Shown here piece after piece: positions 25,634 to 38,826 of a stretch of DNA of 64,000 nt. Made by a program: the position numbers and the translations under genes. The stretch's first letter is position 1. Every line of letters starts with the position of its first letter. Source of the stretch: Nitrospinota bacterium (lineage in GTDB: Bacteria; Nitrospinota_A; UBA7883; JACRLM01). The stretch is taken from positions 1,923,015-1,987,014 of the forward strand of contig JACQXA010000004.1 in assembly GCA_016208975.1 (NCBI GenBank), given 5' to 3'. Below the pieces are notes generated by a model. That model searched no databases. It was not told where the DNA came from and was given only the letters and a program-made list of their open reading frames with translations.

Positions 25634-26845
25634 TTACACACCCACATCCAATACCGGAAGGCCCATGCGGATGGACTGCACGTAATAGCGTTCGAACACC
25701 AGCTTCATCAAATGGAATATCCTGCCCTTTTTATAAACCAGCCTGTTCCTTGGCGCCAATAGCGGGTCTGCGGCGATAAAAAAGGCCTTGTCGCCCGCGT
25801 CGGCCACGCATGTCACGGAAAAATTCTTGCCATCCTTTTTCAGAGCGCCAGTTATGTCCGCCACAATATTGTCCGCCGCCACACGCGCCATCCGCTCGGT
25901 CATCTGGCCTGTTTTCGGGACGCCGGTAGGCACCGGTGTTTTCAATGGCGGGATGGCCAGCGCCACCCCGGCGGAGTATATCTCCGGGTATTTAGGGTTC
26001 GAAAGGTCGTTATTGGCCAGAACGAATCCCCGCGGATTGGCCAACCCTTCCACCCCCATATAGGCGTGGCTCCCGAAGAACGGCGGGATGATTAGCGAGA
26101 AATCGTTCCCGAACTGTGGGCCATCGGAAAGATCAACCGTCTCCTCGGTTACCTTGGACAATGAAACATTGGATTTCCAGGAAATCTCCCTGTCCGCGAA
26201 TTCATCCTCCAGCGCCCGTGTAAGGCCGCCAAATCCGCCCACGCCAAAATGGCCCAGGAACGGCTCGTTGGTGAAGAAAGATATGTTGAACCGGCTCCTT
26301 ATGCCTTTGCGCCGCAACAGGGTGTCCGTGAGCATGGCCATTTCGTAGGCTGGGCCGAGGCACGAGGCGCCTTGGGCGTTGCCGAAAACCAGCGAGCCCG
26401 AGCCTTTTGCGATGGCCGCCTCCAGGGCGCTTCCCGCCTGCAACGCCTGGTCAACCGAGAAAATAGAGTAACTGTTCCCCCCCTCCGGCCCCATGCCCGG
26501 CGCGACTCCGAAATCCAGTTCCGACCCTGTGGCGATAAGCAGGTAATCGTAACGGTAGTCACCCTTAATCCCCTTGGCTATCCTGTTTTCCGGCTCCAGC
26601 CGAACTATGGTGTCCTGGGAAAAACCCACCCCCTTCCGCGCGAAAAGCCCCGGCAGGGGTATTTGAATGCGGGTGGCGTCGCGCCAGCCCATGGCCACCC
26701 AGGGTAGTGACGGGGTAAAGGTGAAATGGTCATCTTTGGAGACCACCGTTATGGAATGGCGGCCTCCCAGTATTTTGGCCAGCCGGGTGGCGGCGTGATA
26801 GCCCCCGAATGAGGAGCCGAGAATAAGGATTTCCTTGCCAGCCAT
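25634..26845 (-). CDS. Sulfide:quinone oxidoreductase-like flavoprotein
   Basis: 403 residues. The N-terminal FAD Rossmann motif ILGSSFGGYHAA is followed by the FTPSLPWVAMG segment seen in SQRs. Two Cys stand where SQR redox cysteines are expected: C162 in GASCLGPAYE and C346 in TCVADAG, resembling Cys160 and Cys356 of the Acidithiobacillus enzyme. SQR oxidises sulfide to persulfide/polysulfide and passes electrons to quinone at the membrane. Neighbouring DsrE-like and rhodanese genes agree. A type II NADH dehydrogenase is less likely because of those cysteines. Confidence 0.82.
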   Translation of the reverse strand: MAGKEILILGSSFGGYHAATRLAKILGGRHSITVVSKDDHFTFTPSLPWVAMGWRDATRIQIPLPGLFARKGVGFSQDTIVRLEPENRIAKGIKGDYRYDYLLIATGSELDFGVAPGMGPEGGNSYSIFSVDQALQAGSALEAAIAKGSGSLVFGNAQGASCLGPAYEMAMLTDTLLRRKGIRSRFNISFFTNEPFLGHFGVGGFGGLTRALEDEFADREISWKSNVSLSKVTEETVDLSDGPQFGNDFSLIIPPFFGSHAYMGVEGLANPRGFVLANNDLSNPKYPEIYSAGVALAIPPLKTPVPTGVPKTGQMTERMARVAADNIVADITGALKKDGKNFSVTCVADAGDKAFFIAADPLLAPRNRLVYKKGRIFHLMKLVFERYYVQSIRMGLPVLDVGV

Positions 26846-26866
26846 GACGGTTTCCCCTCCACCAAT

Positions 26867-27226
26867 TTAAAAAGTTACCACCCGGTCACTGTCCATGATC
26901 CACCGGTTCAACTCGCCCATTGAACCCACTTTTAACGATGAGGCCATTTCGCCCTCCCCAACGCCGCACCGGTCTATGCAGGTCTTGCAGTATTTTATTT
27001 CCGCCCCTTTCGCGGCCAGATCCACTAGCATGTCGCACAGATCGAAAGCGCCGTCTGGAGGGGTTAAAGCATCCCTCCCCGCGTCAACCGCCTCGTTGAT
27101 GAGGAATACCCTCGTCACCGAGCCGTTTTTCAAGGCCGTCTCCGCGAGCCTTATGGCGTTCCACGCCGCGTCGGATCCTGCGTATGGAGCGCTACTAATT
27201 ACCACCAGCAAAGATTTGGATTCCAT
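26867..27226 (-). CDS. DsrE/DsrF-like sulfur-carrier family protein
   Basis: 119 residues from the ATG at 27226, preceded by GGGAGGA at 9 bases; an ATG 18 bases upstream overlaps that site. The DsrE fold is shown by SSAPYAG, the AWNAIRLAETAL helix and a C-rich segment KYCKTCIDRCG near residues 78-88. DsrE relatives bind or relay sulfane sulfur on conserved Cys. It sits 21 bp before the SQR gene and 19 bp after a rhodanese fusion, so it is probably a persulfide relay in this operon. Confidence 0.82.
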   Translation of the reverse strand: MESKSLLVVISSAPYAGSDAAWNAIRLAETALKNGSVTRVFLINEAVDAGRDALTPPDGAFDLCDMLVDLAAKGAEIKYCKTCIDRCGVGEGEMASSLKVGSMGELNRWIMDSDRVVTF

Positions 27227-27245
27227 AAATATCAGTCCTCCCATG

Positions 27246-28202
27246 TTATTTTTCCAGGGGCCATCCCTGTTTTTTCCAAAAGGTCACCCCCCCTTGCGTC
27301 ACCACAGCGTCGAGCCCCTCTTTTATCAGCCGCTCCCTGGCGGAAGAGGAACGGCGATCTGTCCCGCAGATCAAATAGACCCTGGCTCCGCTTTTTATCT
27401 CCCCAATCCTGGTCTCCAGCTCCGGCAATGGGATGTTCACGGCGCCGGGCAGATGACCCTCCACAAATTCCGCTACGCTCCTTACATCCACCACGTAAGG
27501 ATTCCCGCCGGACTCGATCATCCGTTTCAGCTCTTGCGCCGGGGTGAATAGCTTCGCCTCCCGGGCCCTTTTCACCAGCCTTGGTAGAACGAACATGGCC
27601 GCCACCAGCGCCGCCGCCACTAGGCCGTGCCGGACGGCCCCTTCCCCTCCGGCCAGCGCTTCATTACCCGCGTAGCCTAAATAGGTGTAGGCGAAGCTTG
27701 CGGGCGCCATGAAGACAAAGGAGGCTATAACGTATTGCGCCAGGCCTATCTTTGTAAGGCCCAGGGCGTAGTTCATCACATTGAAGGGGAATACCGGCAC
27801 AAGCCGTATGAAGGCCACAAACCACCATCCTTCCACCTCCACGCCGTCGTACATCCTTTTCAACACGCCGGATCCCAACCGGCGTTGTACCCATTCGCCC
27901 GCCACGAACCTTGAAACAATGAAGGCCAGCGTGGCGCCCAGCGTGGCCCCTGTGAGGTTTAGAATCGTGCCCCACACCGGGCCGAAAAGCGCTCCGCCCA
28001 TGATGGTGAGGGCCGATCCGGGGATCATTAGCGGGGTCATCGCGGCGTAGAGCGCCACGAAAATCACAGGCCCCCAAATGCCAGCTTCTTCCAGCAAGGG
28101 CGCAAGCTGGCCCGGATCCAGCGATTCCCGGTTCAAAATCGCCACGACGATAGCCACGATCACCATGGCGGCGACCAAGGTCCTGATAAAATTCCTGTTC
28201 AA
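27246..28202 (-). CDS. VTT/TVP38-DedA membrane domain fused to rhodanese
   Basis: 318 residues. Residues 1-210 form a VTT (TVP38/TMEM64, DedA-like) domain with about six hydrophobic stretches and the GSALTIMGGALFG re-entrant-type segment. Residues about 218-318 form a rhodanese domain with C279 in YLICGTDRRSSS as the predicted persulfide-bearing Cys. A membrane channel or flippase-like domain tethered to a sulfur transferase suggests sulfur handling at the membrane. It is co-oriented with sterol-desaturase-like, DsrE and SQR genes. Confidence 0.87.
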   Translation of the reverse strand: MNRNFIRTLVAAMVIVAIVVAILNRESLDPGQLAPLLEEAGIWGPVIFVALYAAMTPLMIPGSALTIMGGALFGPVWGTILNLTGATLGATLAFIVSRFVAGEWVQRRLGSGVLKRMYDGVEVEGWWFVAFIRLVPVFPFNVMNYALGLTKIGLAQYVIASFVFMAPASFAYTYLGYAGNEALAGGEGAVRHGLVAAALVAAMFVLPRLVKRAREAKLFTPAQELKRMIESGGNPYVVDVRSVAEFVEGHLPGAVNIPLPELETRIGEIKSGARVYLICGTDRRSSSARERLIKEGLDAVVTQGGVTFWKKQGWPLEK

Positions 28203-28220
28203 AATCGCCTCAATCCAAAA

Positions 28221-29051
28221 CTATCTGTTGATGGCGTAACCGCTTCCGGGTGAGACGAATGGCTGGATGAGCATCCTGTCCAGCCGGTTATCTCTCGGGC
28301 CGCGGAACTCTTTTATTCCTATAACCATCCCCAGGTGCCCCTTGGCGGGCTGGGGGAGGTATGTGCCGAAAAGCCTGTCCCACCAGGGCAGGTTGAAACC
28401 GAAATTGCTGTTGGCCTCCCGGGGCTCCACCGAATGATGGACCCTGTGCATGTCCGGGGTCACCACGAAAAGACGCAAAACAGCGTCCACCCTTTCCGGG
28501 ATGCGGATGTTGCCATGGTTGAACATGGCGGTGGCGTTGAGCAAAACCTCGAATATCAGCACCGATCCCGGGCTTGCGCCGATGGCCGTCACCACACCGA
28601 ATTTTATTAGCATGGACAAGATTATCTCTATCGGGTGGAACCGAGCGCCGGTGGTAACGTCATAATCCAGGTCGGCGTGATGCATCCGGTGCAGACGCCA
28701 AAGGGATGGAGCCGCGTGGAACAGAACATGCTGAAAATATATGGCCATGTCCAGAAAGACCACGGCGCCCAGGGTTTCAATCCAGAAGGGGAGGTCAACG
28801 TTGTTTAACAGGCCCCATGCCCTGTCTTGAACGGTGAAGGCCAGCCCCACCGCAGCCGCCGGGAAGATAAGCCTGAGCAGGAGGGTGTTCAACGCCACCA
28901 GCCCCAGGTTCGAAAGCCACCGGGCCGCCTTGGGTGTTGTCAGCGCTCTCCTGGGCGCCGCAAGCTCCCACATGGCCACCGCCCCGAAAACCCCGAAGAA
29001 AAACGATAGCCTTACGGCGGCCTCCCACGCCATTGAACCCTCCCCGGCCAT
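28221..29051 (-). CDS. Sterol desaturase / fatty acid hydroxylase superfamily protein
   Basis: 276 residues with about four to five membrane helices and the diiron histidine clusters HVLFH, HRMHH, an NHGNI segment and HRVHH. Members hydroxylate or desaturate lipids with O2. It is the first gene of the minus-strand sulfide operon, 19 bp before the VTT-rhodanese gene, directly across from the ArsR-rhodanese gene. Its link to sulfur chemistry is not known. Confidence 0.88.
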   Translation of the reverse strand: MAGEGSMAWEAAVRLSFFFGVFGAVAMWELAAPRRALTTPKAARWLSNLGLVALNTLLLRLIFPAAAVGLAFTVQDRAWGLLNNVDLPFWIETLGAVVFLDMAIYFQHVLFHAAPSLWRLHRMHHADLDYDVTTGARFHPIEIILSMLIKFGVVTAIGASPGSVLIFEVLLNATAMFNHGNIRIPERVDAVLRLFVVTPDMHRVHHSVEPREANSNFGFNLPWWDRLFGTYLPQPAKGHLGMVIGIKEFRGPRDNRLDRMLIQPFVSPGSGYAINR

Positions 29052-29095
29052 GATTTAATATACCCCTTCTTGAAAAAGTGGACGCGCTGGCGTAT

Positions 29096-29117
29096 TATTC
29101 AACTGTTCAATTGAATA
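29096..29117. promoter_or_regulatory. ArsR-type operator candidate in the divergent promoter
   Basis: Inverted repeat TATTCAA (29096-29102), 8-base spacer, TTGAATA (29111-29117). A third half-site TTCAA (29106-29110) makes an overlapping perfect palindrome TTCAATTGAA (29106-29115). AT-rich ATTC/GAAT repeats are typical of SqrR/BigR-type sulfide-responsive ArsR proteins. It lies between the divergent ArsR-rhodanese and sulfide operon starts. Confidence 0.6.
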
Positions 29118-29141
29118 CTAAAATATCTTGGGGAAGGGGCA

Positions 29142-29816
29142 ATGTCAAGCGTAAGCCGTAAAGGCGAGATTTACGCCCATTTGGCCAATGCGGGCAAGGC
29201 GCTGGCGCACGGGGCCAGGCTGGAGCTTTTGGAGTACATGTCACAGGGGGAACGAAGCGTAGAGGAGCTGGCGGAGCTTTCAGGCATGCCGGTGGCCAAC
29301 GTCTCCCAGCATCTGCAAAAACTGGGCAGGGCCGGAATGGCCGTTTCCCGCAAGGAGGGGCAGAGGGTGTATTACTCCATATCCGGCATGGAGGTGGTGG
29401 CCCTGCTTTCGGCGCTACGGAGCGTGGCGGAGAAGAACCTGGCGGAAATTCGTGGAGTGGTGGACAGATACCTGAAAGTCAAAGACAGCCTGGAGCCTGT
29501 TCGCGCCCGGGAGCTTTTGAAGCTGGCCAAAAAAGGTTCCGTGACGGTGATAGACGTTCGCCCCCCCGAGGAGTACGTTCAGGGGCATCTGGCCGGGGCC
29601 GTGAATGTGCCGCTAAAGGAGCTGGAGTGGCGGTTGAAGGATATTCCCAAGGCGGGCGAAGTGGTTGCGTATTGCCGGGGGCCTTACTGCGTTATGGCTT
29701 TTGAGGCAGTGGTCGCGCTTCGCAAAAAGGGGTATAGGGCGCGAAGGCTGGCTGATGGATTTCCAGAGTGGAAGCAGGCGGGCCTGCCGGTGGCCGCCGG
29801 GACCGGAAAAAGCTGA
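29142..29816 (+). CDS. ArsR-family regulator fused to a rhodanese domain
   Basis: 224 residues. Residues 1-95 are an ArsR winged helix with recognition segment MPVANVSQHLQKLGRAG. Residues about 115-218 are a rhodanese with C178 and C183 in YCRGPYC. The DNA-binding domain has no Cys, so the usual ArsR thiol sensor is absent and the rhodanese Cys pair is the obvious candidate for sensing persulfide. Divergent from the sterol-desaturase/VTT-rhodanese/DsrE/SQR operon with an operator-like repeat in between. Confidence 0.9.
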   Translation: MSSVSRKGEIYAHLANAGKALAHGARLELLEYMSQGERSVEELAELSGMPVANVSQHLQKLGRAGMAVSRKEGQRVYYSISGMEVVALLSALRSVAEKNLAEIRGVVDRYLKVKDSLEPVRARELLKLAKKGSVTVIDVRPPEEYVQGHLAGAVNVPLKELEWRLKDIPKAGEVVAYCRGPYCVMAFEAVVALRKKGYRARRLADGFPEWKQAGLPVAAGTGKS

Positions 29817-29829
29817 AGACGCGGGGGGC

Positions 29830-31314
29830 TTATCCGTTGTCGGCCATTTGATGGGAGTATAGGACCAGCCTTCCGCCACCTGCCCTTTTAGCCGCGTACA
29901 TGGCGTCGTCGGCGAACTTCACCAGCTCCTCAGGATCGCCGCCATGGGACGGATAGATGCTTATTCCTATGCTGGCCGAAAGCGAAAGGGGGATGCCGCC
30001 GATCTCCACGGGGCTCTTGAGGGCCGCCAGTATCTTTTCCGCTATAAATTCCGGCTCTTCCCCTTTTTTCATCCGGGGGATGAGCGCCATAAACTCGTCC
30101 CCCGCGATGCGCGACACGGTGTCGGACTCCCGGAGCGAGTGTTTCAGCCGTATGGCCGCCTCCTGGATAAGCTTGTCCCCCACATCGTGGCCATGGCTGT
30201 CGTTGACATGCTTTAGTTTGTCCAGATCCAGGAAAAACACCGCCAGCATCTCTCCGTCCCGTTTGGCGTGGGCCAGCTCCAGCGAGAGACGCTCGAAGAA
30301 CATTTGCCGGTTCGGAAGCCCCGTAAGCGCGTCGTGATAGGCCAGGAACCTGATAGTTTCCTCTTTCTGTTTGCGCTCGGCGATGTCGTTGAACACGCCT
30401 ATGTAGTTTGTCACCAGGCCAGAATCGTCTTTAATGGCCGCCAGGGATAGCCACTCGGGGTAAACCTCCCCGTTCTTGCGGCGGTTCCATATTTCCCCCT
30501 GCCATTGCCCGGTGTTTTTCATTTCCTCCCACATCGCCTGGTAGAACTCGGGCCCATGGGCTCCGGACCTGAGAACCCTGGGGGTGCGGCCAATCACATC
30601 CGCCTGATCGTATCCCGTAACGGCCGTGAACGCGGGATTTACCGTTTGTATAACCCCGTTGGCGTCGGTGATCATGATCCCCTCGATGGCGTTATCGAAC
30701 ACCGTGGCGGTCATTTTCAGCCTGTCTTCGGCTTGTTTTCGCTGTGTCCGGTCTATCCCGGTGACGATGATGTGCAGGGGGGCGGTTTCACTCCTAAAGA
30801 GCGCCGCCAGGGACCATTCGATATATCGCCGCTCATGGGCGCTGGTCCTTATATAGTGCCAGAAGCTTACGTTTTTACCTTCGTGGATTACCTGGCGGAG
30901 CGCATCCTGCGCCTCATCTTTGTCGTCATCGCTCCAGGAAAGCTCCTGGAATTTATGACGGTCCAGGTCTTCCGGGGTGTATCCGGTGGTGTCGGAGAAA
31001 GCCCGGTTCATCCTCAATATCCGGCCAGCGGGATCCAGAACGGCCACAAGGGCGCCAACCGTGTCCAGGATGCCCGATACAAAGTTGCGTTCTTCCTGCA
31101 ACTGTATGGCCAGCATGGTGCGGCGGTCCACCTCCTTGCGGAGCGCCGCCTTGCTCCCTTTCATAAGGTAAATGGTCTTGGTGAGCAAATCGGCTTTAAC
31201 CTCCGCCAAATATGCGTTGCACCGCATCTTCAGCGCTTTTTCGGTGAGGTTCTTGTTGATCCCCTGTATTTCCTTCATGTGCCTTGCGCCGGTCTGCCTG
31301 ATGTTCTCGTCCAT
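29830..31314 (-). CDS. PAS-PAS diguanylate cyclase (AGDEF)
   Basis: 494 residues, no membrane segment. An N-terminal coiled region (about 1-80) is followed by two PAS/PAC domains (about 85-200 and 205-325) and a GGDEF domain (about 330-485). The signature is AGDEF (RIAGDEFMAL), a variant still found in active cyclases. The product would be c-di-GMP. It begins 13 bp after the stop of the ODP oxygen-sensor gene and is presumably cotranscribed with it, which suggests O2-dependent c-di-GMP control. Confidence 0.92.
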   Translation of the reverse strand: MDENIRQTGARHMKEIQGINKNLTEKALKMRCNAYLAEVKADLLTKTIYLMKGSKAALRKEVDRRTMLAIQLQEERNFVSGILDTVGALVAVLDPAGRILRMNRAFSDTTGYTPEDLDRHKFQELSWSDDDKDEAQDALRQVIHEGKNVSFWHYIRTSAHERRYIEWSLAALFRSETAPLHIIVTGIDRTQRKQAEDRLKMTATVFDNAIEGIMITDANGVIQTVNPAFTAVTGYDQADVIGRTPRVLRSGAHGPEFYQAMWEEMKNTGQWQGEIWNRRKNGEVYPEWLSLAAIKDDSGLVTNYIGVFNDIAERKQKEETIRFLAYHDALTGLPNRQMFFERLSLELAHAKRDGEMLAVFFLDLDKLKHVNDSHGHDVGDKLIQEAAIRLKHSLRESDTVSRIAGDEFMALIPRMKKGEEPEFIAEKILAALKSPVEIGGIPLSLSASIGISIYPSHGGDPEELVKFADDAMYAAKRAGGGRLVLYSHQMADNG

Positions 31315-31327
31315 CGCCCCCTCCCGG

Positions 31328-32062
31328 TTAAACCAGGTCCACCCCGCATTTCAAGTTTTTCAGCCGGCCGATGGCTTTCCGGACATTCTCCCCCTCCAGC
31401 ACCGAGCCGTGCTGGGGAAGTATCCTTTCTATATCCATCTTCTCCAGCATCTCCATGCATGGGCGCAAAATGGCGGAGCTTGGCATGTAAAGCTCGTGCC
31501 ACCGCTCCATGGGGGAAAGGAAATCCCCGTTGGCGAACAGGCTCCAGTCCTGCGATATGGCCCCGAAAATGTCTGAAGTGAACAAAGTCTTGGTCTGGCT
31601 GTCGTAAGTGACTATGGCGCCGGGCGCGTGCAGGTACGGGGTGAAGATAAAATCCAGTGTCCGTCCGCTTTTCAGCTGGAGTTTGTAGCCGTTTTTGTCC
31701 ACCGCGTAAAACCCGGACCGCAAGCCGTAATGCCTGAGAAGGCGCACCGTGTTGGAGTGGGCCACTATCTGGAGGCTTGCGCTGTTTATTACCTCCTCCA
31801 CCACCGCCAGGTTGCCAGCCACGTCGGGATCCTGATGATGGGCCACCACGTAGGTGATGCTCTCCGGGTCCACAAGGTCTATGACCTTTCGCATCACCAC
31901 GGAGAAGTGGGGGATGGAGCCCGGATCTATGAGAATTATGTCCTCATCGTCGATAAGCACATACGGGTTGCAGTGGAGGTTGGCTTCCCTGTCGTAGAAC
32001 CCGACCCAATAGATGTCCCGTGTTATGGAAATAGCGTTATCGTAATCGAGTTTTAAAGCCAT
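31328..32062 (-). CDS. ODP-type diiron metallo-beta-lactamase-fold oxygen sensor
   Basis: 244 residues, single MBL-fold domain. Ligand motifs are HHQDPDVAGN (near 79-88), LHAPGAIV with a His near 147, TSDIFGA and LPQHGS. The HxxDxD variant in place of HxHxDH is typical of flavodiiron-like ODP proteins that bind O2 at a diiron site without a flavodoxin partner. The direct neighbour is a diguanylate cyclase gene. ODP proteins act as O2 sensors in chemotaxis and signalling in other bacteria; that role is extrapolated here. Confidence 0.85.
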   Translation of the reverse strand: MALKLDYDNAISITRDIYWVGFYDREANLHCNPYVLIDDEDIILIDPGSIPHFSVVMRKVIDLVDPESITYVVAHHQDPDVAGNLAVVEEVINSASLQIVAHSNTVRLLRHYGLRSGFYAVDKNGYKLQLKSGRTLDFIFTPYLHAPGAIVTYDSQTKTLFTSDIFGAISQDWSLFANGDFLSPMERWHELYMPSSAILRPCMEMLEKMDIERILPQHGSVLEGENVRKAIGRLKNLKCGVDLV

Positions 32063-32157
32063 GGGCCTTTTAAATAAGACTTGGTTAAATTGTAAAGGGG
32101 CGTTACTGAGCCATTCTACACAATCATGGCGCCCCGTGTCTAATCAACAGACCCGCT

Positions 32158-33927
32158 CTAAAAACAGAACACCCCAAGAGCCCCCGGTCCAACATGGGAG
32201 CCTAACACCGGCGAGACCCGGCCGGTGAGGGGAGATTCCACCCCCAGCCGTTCTTTTATAATGGCGATAACCTGGTCCCGGCTGTCCATGTCGTCCGACC
32301 AGGCGACGGCCACGCGCCCTTCAAAGCCGGGCCGGGAGGCGCGTTCCTCCAGCAGTTCCACCAGTTTTTTCATCATCGCCTTCCTGCCCAGTGCCGACCG
32401 GCATGACGTTGCCTTTCCATCCTTGTATTCAAGGATGGGTTTCACCCCGAAAGCATAGCCTATTACCTTCTTGGCGGTTCCAATACGCCCGTTTTTGGAG
32501 AGATATTCCAGCGTGTCCACCGTGAAGAAGGTGGAGAGTTTCCCTTTTATCCCATCCAGCCGCGACAGAATGTCCGTAACCGCGGCTCCGCTTTCCGCCA
32601 TGCGGGCGGCTTCCACAACCATCATCCCCAGTCCCAGCGAAACATGGCCCGAATCGTAACTTATAACCTTTCCGCCGCCGAACTCGTCCCCAAGCCTTTT
32701 CCCGGCCTGGTAGGCGCCGGAGAGGGTGGAGGATATGTAGATGGCCAGGACCTTGTCGCAATGGGGGATGAGGTGCTCCAGCGCCCGGATGAAATCGCCC
32801 GGGGCCGGAAGGCTGGTGCGGGGTAAAGATCCGTCCCGCCGAAGGCGGTGATAGAACTCGTCGGCGGTGATGTCCATCCTGTCGCGGAAAGACTCGTCGC
32901 CGAACATCACCTGGAGCGGCGCCATCTCCACGCCCAGCTCTTCGAGCAGAGCCAGGTCCAAGTCGCAGGTGGAGTCGGTGAGCATCCCGATGGCCTTGAG
33001 CGCCCGTTCCGCCCCCGCCAGCTGGCCGCTTTGGGCCACCATGTCGTCCACCTTGGTCTTTATAAGCTGGCCCAGGCCGCCGAGGTAACTGAACACTTTG
33101 GGCGGGTCGTTGGTGTGCACATGTATTTTCAGCAGGCCGCTGTCGCAGGTTACTATCACCGAGTCCCCCAGGGAAGACAACTGGCCGCTTATGTCGCTCC
33201 TTACGAATCCGCCGCCGCTTACAAGCCCCTCCACGCAATAACGGAACTTGATATCCTCCGGCTTGGCGCGGGCGAATACGCGCCTGATAGGTTTTAACGC
33301 CGCGCCCCATTCCCCCTTCATGTAGTTTAACGCCCCTTCCCAGAACAGCAGGAACCCATGGGCGCCGGAATCCACCACTTTGTTCTCCCGGAGTAGCTCC
33401 ATCTCCCCGGTGGTCTCGTCCACCGAGTGGCGGGCGCTTTCCACCAGTTTCTCTATGGTCACCCGCATGTCCTCGATATCCGTCTGGGCTTCTTTGAGCC
33501 TGTCCACAGCCTTGCGGATGGTGGTGAGGATGGTGCCCTCCTTCGGGTTTGTAAGGGCCGCGTAGGCCGCCTGTTTGCCATGGTCCATCGCTTCAATGAA
33601 CCCGCCGGGGCGGACAGACTCCTCCTCTTTTAGCTTCAAAAACATGCCGTGGAAGAATTCCGAAAGTATGATGCCGGAGTTACCCTTGGCGTCCATACGA
33701 AGTTTTTGGGATAGCGTGCGAAGCACCTGGCTTAAGGAATCGCCATCGGAGCCCTCCAGCGCCTCGGCGGCTTTTGTGAGGGTGTGGGCCATGTTCGTGC
33801 CCGTGTCGCCATCGGGCACGGGGAACACGTTAATGCTGTTGAGGTAGTCGCGGGACTCGGAAACCCGCCGCGCCCCCGCAATGAAAAGCTCCCGGAACCT
33901 TTGTCCGTCCAGCGTATCCTTGGTCAT
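32158..33927 (-). CDS. Dak2 (FakA-like)-DegV (FakB-like) fusion protein
   Basis: 589 residues. The N-terminal Dak2/FakA nucleotide domain has VPDGDTGTNM near 37-46 and a NSGII motif. The middle domain follows, and the C-terminal about 280 residues are a DegV/FakB fatty-acid-binding domain (MLTDSTCDL, YISSTLSGAY). In Firmicutes FakA and FakB are separate proteins that phosphorylate fatty acids for phospholipid synthesis. The fusion puts kinase and acyl carrier in one chain. plsX and plsY are not nearby. Confidence 0.88.
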   Translation of the reverse strand: MTKDTLDGQRFRELFIAGARRVSESRDYLNSINVFPVPDGDTGTNMAHTLTKAAEALEGSDGDSLSQVLRTLSQKLRMDAKGNSGIILSEFFHGMFLKLKEEESVRPGGFIEAMDHGKQAAYAALTNPKEGTILTTIRKAVDRLKEAQTDIEDMRVTIEKLVESARHSVDETTGEMELLRENKVVDSGAHGFLLFWEGALNYMKGEWGAALKPIRRVFARAKPEDIKFRYCVEGLVSGGGFVRSDISGQLSSLGDSVIVTCDSGLLKIHVHTNDPPKVFSYLGGLGQLIKTKVDDMVAQSGQLAGAERALKAIGMLTDSTCDLDLALLEELGVEMAPLQVMFGDESFRDRMDITADEFYHRLRRDGSLPRTSLPAPGDFIRALEHLIPHCDKVLAIYISSTLSGAYQAGKRLGDEFGGGKVISYDSGHVSLGLGMMVVEAARMAESGAAVTDILSRLDGIKGKLSTFFTVDTLEYLSKNGRIGTAKKVIGYAFGVKPILEYKDGKATSCRSALGRKAMMKKLVELLEERASRPGFEGRVAVAWSDDMDSRDQVIAIIKERLGVESPLTGRVSPVLGSHVGPGALGVFCF

Positions 33928-35470: not shown

Positions 35471-36214
35471 ATGGATCCCTCCGATAAGCTGAACATACAG
35501 ATTCAGCACGAGTACCGGGGCAAAGGCAAGTCGCGCCTTGAACAGTACCAGGACCTGGTGGTGGGTAGCCGCTCCATATGGTTCCTCATGAAGTTCGAGC
35601 TTATTACCCTGCTTTTTTCCCGGATTCCCGGGGCGTTGGGGCTCATCCTGCGAAAAATATTCTATCCCTTCATTGTTAATAAAGTGGGGCATGGGGTGGT
35701 GTTCGGTGTGGACGTGTCCCTGCGGCATCCTCAAAAGCTTACAATTGGCGAACGGGCCATTATAGACGATGGCGTTCTTCTGGACGCCAAGGGGGCAGAT
35801 AACAACGGCATCAGCCTGGGCGCCAACAGCTACATAGGCCGGGGCACGGTGTTAAGTTGCAAGGAGGGGGATATTGTAATAGGCGACTACGCCAACATAT
35901 CCACATGGTGCAACATCTCGTCCAACTCCAAAATAATAATAGGCGAGAAAACCCTGCTGGGGCCTTATGTTTCCATCTTCGCCACCAGGCACAATTTCGA
36001 CCGGCTGGACGAGGCCATACTGGACCAGGCATGGTCCAGCAAGGGTATAACCCTGGGCGCCAACTGCTGGCTTGGGGCCAAGGTGACGGTGCTGGATGGG
36101 GTCACTGTGGGGGACAACACCGTGGTGGGCGCCGGGGCGGTGATTAACGCCGATCTGCCGCCAAACGTGGTGGCCGTGGGAATGCCCGCCAGGGTTGTAC
36201 GGGAAAGGAAATGA
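35471..36214 (+). CDS. Left-handed beta-helix acyltransferase
   Basis: 247 residues from the ATG at 35471; an upstream TTG is less likely. Hexapeptide repeats run from about residue 75 to the end (for example IGEKTLLGPYVSIFA, LGANCWLGAKVTVLDGVTVG) and the catalytic-type His lies in ATRHNFDR. Such enzymes acetylate sugars, often in surface polysaccharide pathways. Its stop overlaps the next gene (ATGA), a large membrane protein, so the two are likely cofunctional. Confidence 0.87.
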   Translation: MDPSDKLNIQIQHEYRGKGKSRLEQYQDLVVGSRSIWFLMKFELITLLFSRIPGALGLILRKIFYPFIVNKVGHGVVFGVDVSLRHPQKLTIGERAIIDDGVLLDAKGADNNGISLGANSYIGRGTVLSCKEGDIVIGDYANISTWCNISSNSKIIIGEKTLLGPYVSIFATRHNFDRLDEAILDQAWSSKGITLGANCWLGAKVTVLDGVTVGDNTVVGAGAVINADLPPNVVAVGMPARVVRERK

Positions 36215-38826
36215 CCCAAAGCCCGGCAAACCGCCCAGCCAGGCCGTTTTCGGTTTTTGCCCTCTTTTTTCTCATCGGCCTGTTTTTTTCATGGCCGCTG
36301 GCTGGAAACCTATTCAATTCCATTCCATACGCGTATATTCCCGCGGCGGAGCTTTTAAAATCGAAGCTTATCCAGGGAGACCATCTTCAGTTTTACTATC
36401 ATCTGGGTCTGCTCAAACACGCCGCGTTGGGGCATATAGAGTGGTTTACTAACCCTCTGGAATTCGCCACGGAATACCAGAGTAAAGGCTTTTACAGCTA
36501 TTTCATGCCGCTCTCGTTTCTTTATTTGCCGTTCACTGCCGTTTCAACGCCACTGGCCTACAACCTGTTCCTGCTGATAACGTTCGCTCTCGGCGGGCTG
36601 GCCATGTATTTATGGGCGTGGCAGGTTACCGGCAACCGGTTTGCGGCGCTTATGGCCGGGGTGGTGTTCAACTTCGCGCCCATAAGGCAGGTGGAGCTTT
36701 TTGGAGGCCATCCCGCCGGATTCGCCATATTCATGGCCCCGCTGACCATGTATTTTTTTGACCGGGCCATGGCCAGCCGGAAAATCGCGCAGGGCGTTCT
36801 GGCGGGGCTTTGCGCGTTCCTGCTGGCGTTCCAGTATCTCCAGTTCGGTTATTACATGCTGATGTTCCTGATTGTGTACATCCCATGGATGGTCTGGACA
36901 TCCACAACAGGCTCAGGTTTGAATTATAAAACGGCGCTCCGCGCTTTTGCGCCAACAATGGCCCCGTTCCTCACGGGTTTGGCCGGGGCTGTCGGCTGGA
37001 TGTACTACTTCAAGAAATCGGCCGTGAAAGAGGCCGTGTTCTCCGCCGGGCGCACCATGGACGAGATAAGCCTTTTTTCCCCGAAACTTTCTTCCGCGTG
37101 GGATCCGGACACGGATTTCAGCGTTTACATCGGCCTGCCGCTTCTGATGGTAGTAGCCGCGCTGGCCCTGGGCGTGGCGGCGTTAAAGTGGAAGTCCAAT
37201 TCGATGAGAGACGCCATTTTCTTCAGCGCCGTTTTCGTGTTGGCGTACATCCTCTCTTTCGGCGTAACGCTGAACGGGATTATTCCGCTGTACACGGTGT
37301 TCTATAAATATTTCCCTTATTTCAACCTTTCCCGCACCCCCGCCAAGATGATGCTGGTGTCGCTTATGTCCATCGCCATGCTAACGGCGGTATTGGCGGC
37401 ATGGTCCATAGAAAAAGAGCGCTGGCGACGGGTTGCGGGAGTTGTCCTGATCGCCTTCACCCTTGTGGTAATGGCGGACTGGCGCCCGGCCAGAGGGGTG
37501 GGGATGTGCGTCCTTGACGAGGGCAACGCCATATATAAAGATGCGGCTCAGCGAGACGGCGGGAAAATACTGAACCTGCCCATATGGCCCGGGGAAAGCT
37601 CCTGGGAGTCTATCTATCAGTATTACGCCATATCCAGCGGGGCGCCGATGATCAACGGCTATTCCCCCCTGGTGTCCAAACGGTACGCCGAAAACGTCTT
37701 CATGCCCCTCTTTTCATTAAACGCCGGGGATGTCACCCAGAAACAGGCCCACCTGTTGAAAGAGCTGGGGGTGACAAACATAATATTCCACGAAGAGGCA
37801 TATCCGCCCAAGGTGTCGGCCTATCCGGCCGGTCTGGCTGTGGCGAGACTGGCCAGGTCTCCCTATCTAAAGCTTGTGAGGCATGAAGGGCCGTTATGGC
37901 TTTTCGAGCTTTCGCCGGAGAGTGGGGAGGGGAAAGCGGAAACCATTCAGGTATCATCCCCGGTGGGAGTGTTTTACGAAGCGGAACATCTGGCCCCTAT
38001 TGGGGGAAAACGTGTTGAGGATAAGCGAGCCTCTGGCGGCATTGCGCTTTTGATGGAAAAAGCGGAGCCCGGCAATCCCGCTGGCATAATAAACGCCGGG
38101 CCGTACAGGACTTTTCCGTCCGGAAAATATACGGCCGTGTTCCGCATGAGAACCGTTGACGGGATCCCGGCGGAGGCCCCGGTGGCCAAACTGGACGTGG
38201 CCGCCGATGAGGGACGGACAATTGTAAAATGGCGGAAAGTCAACGGCGCCGAGTTTGGCCAGGATGGCGGGTATCAGGATATACAGCTGGAGTTTGAGCT
38301 TGCCCCCGGCGGCGCATGGCAATTGGAGTTTCGCGCCTATCTTGCGGGGAGCGCGCCTGTATGGCTGGACAGCGTGTATGTATTGCCAGCCGAAAGGGTT
38401 GACCCCCAGTTTGAATTCGAGGCAGAAGAGCTTTTCCATACGGGTGACGCGATAAAAGATGAAAACGCCTCCGGAGGTCTGGTGGTGCGGGCGGAGCCGG
38501 GGAAAGATCCCATAGGCCCAATGGTTTTCGGCCCATGGCGGATGTTTGAAGCGGGGGACTATTCGTTACGTGTTTATATGCGCTCAGAATGCCCTGCCGG
38601 AATCCAGGGCGGCGCAGGCGTTTCCATCCACAAGGGTGGAGAGGGTAAACTGATAATGAAAAGTGATACGCCGCCCGCGGGTCAGGCTGGCAGTGGATAT
38701 GGTGAAACCGCCCTTAAGTTCCACCTGGACGAAAAAGGGCCGCTGGAGTTTAAGGTGGTTTTTAGCGGAGCCTGCGCGGTGATGGTTGATAAATTGCGGG
38801 TTGAAGCTGATAAAACCTCCAATTGA
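36211..38826 (+). CDS. YfhO-like polytopic membrane protein with two CBM-like domains
   Basis: 871 residues. The first about 430 carry roughly twelve membrane helices in a GT-C/YfhO-like arrangement, then a soluble region. Two similar C-terminal modules (about 590-715 and about 730-870) both contain an E-A-E start, a K/D-E-x-A-S-G-G segment and an R-M/T-F-x-G/A-G-D/K-Y segment, typical of CBM6/35-type carbohydrate-binding sandwiches. This suggests transfer or recognition of glycans on the outer face. Coupled to the acyltransferase by a 4-bp overlap. Confidence 0.75.
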   Translation: MTQSPANRPARPFSVFALFFLIGLFFSWPLAGNLFNSIPYAYIPAAELLKSKLIQGDHLQFYYHLGLLKHAALGHIEWFTNPLEFATEYQSKGFYSYFMPLSFLYLPFTAVSTPLAYNLFLLITFALGGLAMYLWAWQVTGNRFAALMAGVVFNFAPIRQVELFGGHPAGFAIFMAPLTMYFFDRAMASRKIAQGVLAGLCAFLLAFQYLQFGYYMLMFLIVYIPWMVWTSTTGSGLNYKTALRAFAPTMAPFLTGLAGAVGWMYYFKKSAVKEAVFSAGRTMDEISLFSPKLSSAWDPDTDFSVYIGLPLLMVVAALALGVAALKWKSNSMRDAIFFSAVFVLAYILSFGVTLNGIIPLYTVFYKYFPYFNLSRTPAKMMLVSLMSIAMLTAVLAAWSIEKERWRRVAGVVLIAFTLVVMADWRPARGVGMCVLDEGNAIYKDAAQRDGGKILNLPIWPGESSWESIYQYYAISSGAPMINGYSPLVSKRYAENVFMPLFSLNAGDVTQKQAHLLKELGVTNIIFHEEAYPPKVSAYPAGLAVARLARSPYLKLVRHEGPLWLFELSPESGEGKAETIQVSSPVGVFYEAEHLAPIGGKRVEDKRASGGIALLMEKAEPGNPAGIINAGPYRTFPSGKYTAVFRMRTVDGIPAEAPVAKLDVAADEGRTIVKWRKVNGAEFGQDGGYQDIQLEFELAPGGAWQLEFRAYLAGSAPVWLDSVYVLPAERVDPQFEFEAEELFHTGDAIKDENASGGLVVRAEPGKDPIGPMVFGPWRMFEAGDYSLRVYMRSECPAGIQGGAGVSIHKGGEGKLIMKSDTPPAGQAGSGYGETALKFHLDEKGPLEFKVVFSGACAVMVDKLRVEADKTSN

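Follow-up and report, generated by a model that had tools for sequence, protein, structure and literature searches.

The locus and its two genes

The window, by which we mean the whole stretch of 64,000 nucleotides analyzed here, carries on its reverse strand a gene for a stand-alone protein of the ODP family, followed by a gene for a diguanylate cyclase. The relevant features are, in the direction of transcription:

32113..32142, reverse strand: weak candidate for a sigma-70-like promoter upstream of the ODP gene, TAGACA-18-TAGAAT
31328..32062, reverse strand: ODP gene (P0001), 244 aa, stand-alone diiron protein of metallo-beta-lactamase (MBL) fold
31820..31837, reverse strand: diiron motif 2, HQDPDV, residues 76-81 (H76, D78, D80; V81 replaces the third His as in other ODPs)
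31315..31327, reverse strand: intergenic gap of 13 nt, G-rich, with a strong Shine-Dalgarno-like stretch as read from the sequence
29830..31314, reverse strand: diguanylate cyclase gene (P0002), 494 aa, with N-terminal (NT) module, PAS, PAS and GGDEF domains (Pfam)
31120..31314, reverse strand: NT module, residues 1-65, with conserved L23, E25, C32, Y35, V39, K40, L43, L44, T47 and S54
30733..31068, reverse strand: PAS1, residues 83-194 (Pfam PAS_4), poorly conserved between NT-cyclases
30376..30705, reverse strand: PAS2, residues 204-313 (Pfam), with MmoS 3ewk and NifL 2gj3 as nearest solved structures
29875..30342, reverse strand: GGDEF domain, residues 325-480 (PF00990, 161.5 bits)
30121..30132, reverse strand: I-site RESD, residues 395-398, read from the sequence, RxxD intact
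30091..30105, reverse strand: active-site motif AGDEF, residues 404-408, read from the sequence

Open reading frames, Pfam domains and motif positions all agree with the first-pass annotation, in which the ODP gene was placed 13 nt upstream of a cyclase with two PAS domains and an AGDEF site. Within the 13-nt gap, a GGAGGGGG-like stretch lies ahead of the ATG of the cyclase gene. Since the downstream neighbor of the cyclase, an ArsR-rhodanese gene (29142-29816), is convergent and a gap of 95 nt containing the weak promoter match separates the ODP gene from the upstream DAK2-DegV gene, the gene arrangement suggests that ODP and cyclase are transcribed together as a unit of two genes. ODP and cyclase are paired in this way in four host-phylum genomes, counting that of the window, and three further phyla show the same arrangement with outputs other than the cyclase, so that a chance adjacency of the two genes was rejected.

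The surroundings of the pair contain a cluster (25634-29816) of genes for an ArsR-rhodanese regulator, a VTT-rhodanese protein, DsrE, a fatty-acid-hydroxylase-like protein and a pyridine-nucleotide disulphide reductase-like protein, and this cluster looks like one for the handling and sensing of sulfane sulfur. At 32158-33927, a single gene encodes DAK2, a FakA-like middle part and DegV, so that the two components of a fatty acid kinase system are combined in one protein, and an ORF of 871 aa at 36211-38826 gave no Pfam match at E 1e-5.

With regard to the cyclase, the sequence FLDLDKLKHVND is present at residues 361-372 and the metal-binding Asp is found in DLDKLKHVND. Together with an A-site of the GGDEF type and the RxxD I-site, these features predict an active enzyme, and the change from Gly to Ala in the GGDEF motif is tolerated in some active cyclases. 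The host genome shows 21 GGDEF and 12 PilZ matches, which makes c-di-GMP signaling plausible in this organism. No Pfam match to a globin or hemerythrin sensor domain was obtained for P0002. PAS1 shares only 29% identity with its best counterpart (in locus L051).

Affiliation of the ODP protein and its diiron site

The 244-aa protein matches the ODP family (PF19583) with 210.5 bits, compared to a cut-off of 27.2. In phmmer searches, its best relatives of solved structure are the ODPs from Thermotoga maritima (6qrq; E 3.9e-37) and Treponema denticola (6qnm; E 1.7e-25), and flavodiiron proteins rank after them with E 3e-12 and worse, the corresponding scores being 131 bits for 6qrq and 50 bits for the best flavodiiron protein. 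Similarly, with an AlphaFold2 (AF2) model of the window ODP (pLDDT 94), Foldseek ranks 1-8 were all ODP entries and flavodiiron proteins appeared later. In an alignment of 55 ODPs, the iron ligands are highly conserved (H76 in 53/55, D78 in 53/55, D80 in 52/55, H145 in 54/55 and D164 in 55/55), and H218 occurs in 51/51 of the ungapped sequences. In motif 5, which is of the PQHG type, His (H218) is preceded by Gln (Q217), and the pair Q217-H218 is invariant in an alignment of 19 ODP sequences. The presence of V81 instead of the third motif-2 His, together with Q217, agrees with the altered coordination published for the ODP of T. maritima, where the third motif-2 His is lost and a Gln is found in motif 5 (PMC7785958).

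It had been pointed out at the outset that ODP homologs might turn out to be parts of rubredoxin:oxygen oxidoreductases (ROO), and we find domain content, neighbors, motifs and nearest structures of the window protein to be at odds with this. The C-terminal flavodoxin domain with FMN, which we take to be the hallmark of flavodiiron proteins and ROO, is absent; neither this nor any other electron-delivery domain was detected by Pfam in what is a single-domain protein, and no gene for flavodoxin, rubredoxin or another electron donor occurs among its annotated neighbors. Also, the motif-2 Glu of flavodiiron proteins (HxExD) is not found, as HQDPDV has an Asp at the Glu position. Lacking a flavodoxin domain and having motifs 2 and 5 of the ODP type, the protein was rejected as a part of ROO or a flavodiiron protein. 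A related explanation would be that the ODP consumes O2 or NO as an enzyme and is only an operon-mate of the cyclase. Its fold is indeed that of the oxidase portion of flavodiiron proteins, with a TM-score, taken over the query, of about 0.8. However, with no flavodoxin domain and no neighboring electron donor, with the motif-2 Glu/His of flavodiiron proteins absent, with an exclusive linkage to a signaling module across different outputs (see below) and with fusions to signaling domains elsewhere, we consider an enzymatic role highly improbable.

ODP has been reported to bind both iron and oxygen and to interact with cognate receptors, which are cytoplasmic chemoreceptors without a sensor of their own (PMC6978683). 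It is also named as the O2 sensor in T. denticola chemotaxis (PMC7666581). The window ODP might nevertheless sense Fe(II), NO or the redox state and still control the cyclase through its N-terminal helix: ODP has been called an iron and oxygen sensor (PMC6978683; Muok et al., 2019, by its title as cited there), and NO reductases are among the nearest enzyme relatives of the window protein. Although sequence gives no separation of these ligands, known ODPs bind O2, and we regard a ligand other than O2 as unlikely.

A helical N-terminal module linked to one ODP clade

For the N-terminus of the cyclase, no match to a known family was obtained in Pfam (residues 1-82) or NCBIfam and no credible one in PDB (residues 1-68). 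The same N-terminus was seen before unrelated outputs among genes adjoining ODPs in other genomes. From 11 such sequences, AF2 predicts a lone continuous helix comprising residues 2-64 (pLDDT 92), in which E25, Y35, K40, L43, L44 and T47 show no variation and C32 is present in 10/11. The NT module of the window cyclase is 33-55% identical to those of other outputs; among GGDEF proteins, identities of 42-58% for the module are comparable to the 35-55% of the GGDEF domain itself.

In order to define the distribution of the module, a profile of its 65 positions (A2, then A3) was used in 981 genome searches, some genomes being repeated, which covered 385 relatives, 8 genomes of the phylum of G114, 52 of the phylum of G102 (SAR324/Lambdaproteobacteria), 141 of the order of G331 and 395 of the phylum of G331. 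Strong matches (63 bits or more) were obtained in ten genomes from four phyla, one per genome, and each is located directly 3' of an ODP gene, as is an eleventh in the metagenome locus L003. In the host, the module is carried only by the window cyclase among the 21 GGDEF matches. None was found in plasmids. One further match, in G676 (E 8e-4, 21 bits), was dismissed as chance, for the ORF is unrelated and neighbors a helicase gene, and no ODP occurs in the stretch read. The outputs that follow the module are:

PAS-GGDEF: window genome, G004, G009, G010
GGDEF without PAS: G438
Histidine kinase (HK): G102, G372
HK-REC: G018
PAS-HK-REC: L003, G114
Module as a free coiled coil of 135 aa, followed by a PAS-HK gene: G331

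Overlaps of 4-22 nt are frequent between the ORFs with the NT module and the ODP ORFs and suggest that their translation is coupled. Given some 2,900 genes per genome (estimated from genome size), random adjacency in even four phyla would be negligible. When, conversely, the ODP was searched against the same 385 genomes, eight full-length matches of >300 bits and a contig-truncated one in G114 were obtained. ODPs of the NT-linked clade and NT modules thus share the same 9/385 genomes, and both are missing from the remaining 376, save for a broken ODP in G003 (L059; G003:C8:3742-4305 onwards). There, a stop and a frameshift disrupt an ODP of the clade, of which relatives have intact copies, and the profile search gave no match to the NT module in this 99% complete genome, which fits a joint loss of both.

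The 11 ODPs linked to an NT module come together in one clade (support 99/94) of a tree computed for 55 ODPs, and labels for the type of partner cluster on this tree, with 9 changes compared to a mean of 31.9 for shuffled labels. In this tree the organism labels of 6qrq and 6qnm stand interchanged, and L097 was scored as "other" in spite of its partner being an NT protein; both leave the conclusion unaffected. Other clades have other partners. A second ODP of the host (G000:C4:14664-15374; L079:8605-9683), 48% identical to the window ODP, lies 2 nt upstream of a gene for a conserved protein of 91 aa with the consensus GYRDLIxxVIxREMGIIG...YGPVAVMGCKIAVARKARE.L.LPPIL and no Pfam match. Within the host phylum, 12 loci have this pair, and their ODPs group in the tree. 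A third clade precedes a different protein of about 80 aa (L072, L074, L083, L084, L085, L086, L087, L105, L125), which has the motif ..MAVVKISAKQIIRKAGI.L and likewise gave no Pfam match, and the sister ODPs of that clade (L067, L068, L122, L123) carry class III adenylate/guanylate cyclase domains as fusion partners. Fusions of ODP and GGDEF domains were detected by Pfam in L062 and L064 and by reading in L120 and L121. Across L073, L134, L135, L066, L071, L006 and L138, we noticed REC-ODP proteins, a Ser/Thr-kinase-like N-terminus fused to ODP, an ODP with a SpoIIE-like tail, and ODPs adjoining SpoIIE phosphatases or an HD-GYP-like gene. Such fusions and neighbors point to a wide set of outputs. 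ODP positions that are kept in the NT-linked clade and differ in the small-protein clade include R58, I61, N84, A86, V87, L215, E223 and G224, and they are candidate sites of contact or tuning.

The conserved helix could serve dimerization instead of contact with the ODP, the linkage then stemming from operon inheritance. Its prediction as one continuous helix would suit such a role, and cyclases and kinases often begin with a long helix. Nevertheless, outputs have been swapped in four phyla while module and ODP stayed together, and no further GGDEF protein of the host carries the module, so that dimerization as the sole function appears decidedly unlikely.

The first-pass annotation had seen no obvious sensor in the cyclase other than PAS. 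PAS domains are indeed present, but residues 1-65 constitute a conserved ODP-linked module, and PAS2 resembles FAD-binding PAS domains (E 1.8e-26 with MmoS 3ewk and 1.9e-14 with NifL 2gj3). PAS2 may therefore bind flavin and provide a second redox input, or a separate flavin sensor. Its closeness to these FAD domains, along with its conservation among NT-cyclases of the host phylum (50-59% identity), raises the question of whether PAS2 is the real redox sensor, the ODP merely modulating it or protecting it by O2 removal. We judge this to be very unlikely. PAS domains are absent from the NT-GGDEF protein that accompanies the ODP in G438 and from NT-kinases of SAR324, and the linkage of module and ODP therefore does not require PAS; moreover, the PAS subtype of PAS2 is common in unrelated proteins.

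Proposed coupling and comparison with known systems

We propose, with a probability of about 0.7, that the pair constitutes a two-gene switch from O2 to c-di-GMP, in which the ODP would dock on the NT helix of the cyclase and the diiron-O2 state would set cyclase activity. Gene order, domains, diiron ligands, the exclusive linkage of the module to one ODP clade across outputs and the helical prediction form its basis. The ODP would bind two irons in its metallo-beta-lactamase fold and, on reaction with O2, probably enter a reversible peroxo-diiron state as in the Treponema and Thermotoga ODPs. Docked onto the long N-terminal helix (residues 1-65) of a dimeric cyclase, it would alter the packing of the helix pair according to its O2 or redox state, and this change would be transmitted through the coiled coil and the PAS domains to the GGDEF domains, whereby c-di-GMP synthesis would go up or down. 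A direct coupling of the ODP to the cyclase, as suggested initially, gains support at the sequence level from the strict tie of the module to one ODP clade and from the ODP-GGDEF fusions elsewhere.

O2 sensing thus appears as a portable module that is fitted to different enzymes. By a slight preference, we further consider residues 1-65 to be a transferable ODP-receptor domain of a new kind, in which a helical plug brings any coiled-coil-controlled enzyme, be it a cyclase or a histidine kinase, under the control of a separate diiron O2 sensor, each ODP clade having its cognate adaptor (the NT helix, the 90-aa or the 80-aa small protein, or a chemoreceptor) and ODPs being interchangeable sensor subunits. 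None of the sources accessible here describes the NT module, its exclusive tie to one ODP clade or its movement among outputs. The familiar O2 sensors of c-di-GMP enzymes are domains in cis, on the same polypeptide as the enzyme. If the proposal is true, the ODP is a sensor subunit in its own right, which fits onto a defined helix of 65 residues, and in several phyla this helix has been exchanged between cyclases and kinases. The module would then be a sequence signature for finding ODP-controlled enzymes, with R58, I61, N84, A86, V87 and 213-224 of the ODP and Y35, K40, L43, L44 and T47 of the helix as key candidate residues, and the transfer of state from ODP to partner would become tractable in a simple two-protein enzyme system.

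Several known systems are related to this unit. Flavodiiron proteins and ROO have the MBL diiron fold in common with the window ODP, whereas the latter has no flavodoxin domain and carries a motif 2 of the form HxDxDV and a PQHG motif 5, not the HxExD type. In bacteriohemerythrin-GGDEF proteins, a non-heme diiron site controls a cyclase, but that site resides in a four-helix hemerythrin fold in cis, in contrast to the MBL fold in trans proposed here. Globin-coupled diguanylate cyclases and DosC/DosP exert O2-dependent control of c-di-GMP turnover (PMC5549716, PMC7033309). They do so with a heme sensor in cis, unlike the window cyclase with its lack of a globin or hemerythrin match in Pfam.

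Also related are the ODP-MCP chemotaxis sensors of T. denticola and T. maritima (Muok et al., 2019, as cited in PMC7666581 and PMC6978683). As in the window pair, their ODP stands alone and has these diiron motifs, and the adjacent gene specifies a cytoplasmic signaling protein without a classical sensor domain. They differ in that the window partner is a diguanylate cyclase and not a chemoreceptor, that the window ODP belongs to a different clade and that the N-terminal module of its partner is not detectably homologous to MCP N-termini. A KSxLLxxTI stretch in two MCPs resembles the module by eye, but homology to the N-termini of ODP-coupled MCPs was rejected (hhalign probability 0.3%, hmmsearch E about 1), and the idea of docking is therefore not transferable from the chemoreceptors by homology. 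ODPs fused to, or in operons with, other signal-transduction genes have been described (Muok et al., 2019, according to the TREND paper, PMC7319448). The window unit is of the same general kind, and that ODPs feed non-chemotaxis signaling, fusions included, is already known.
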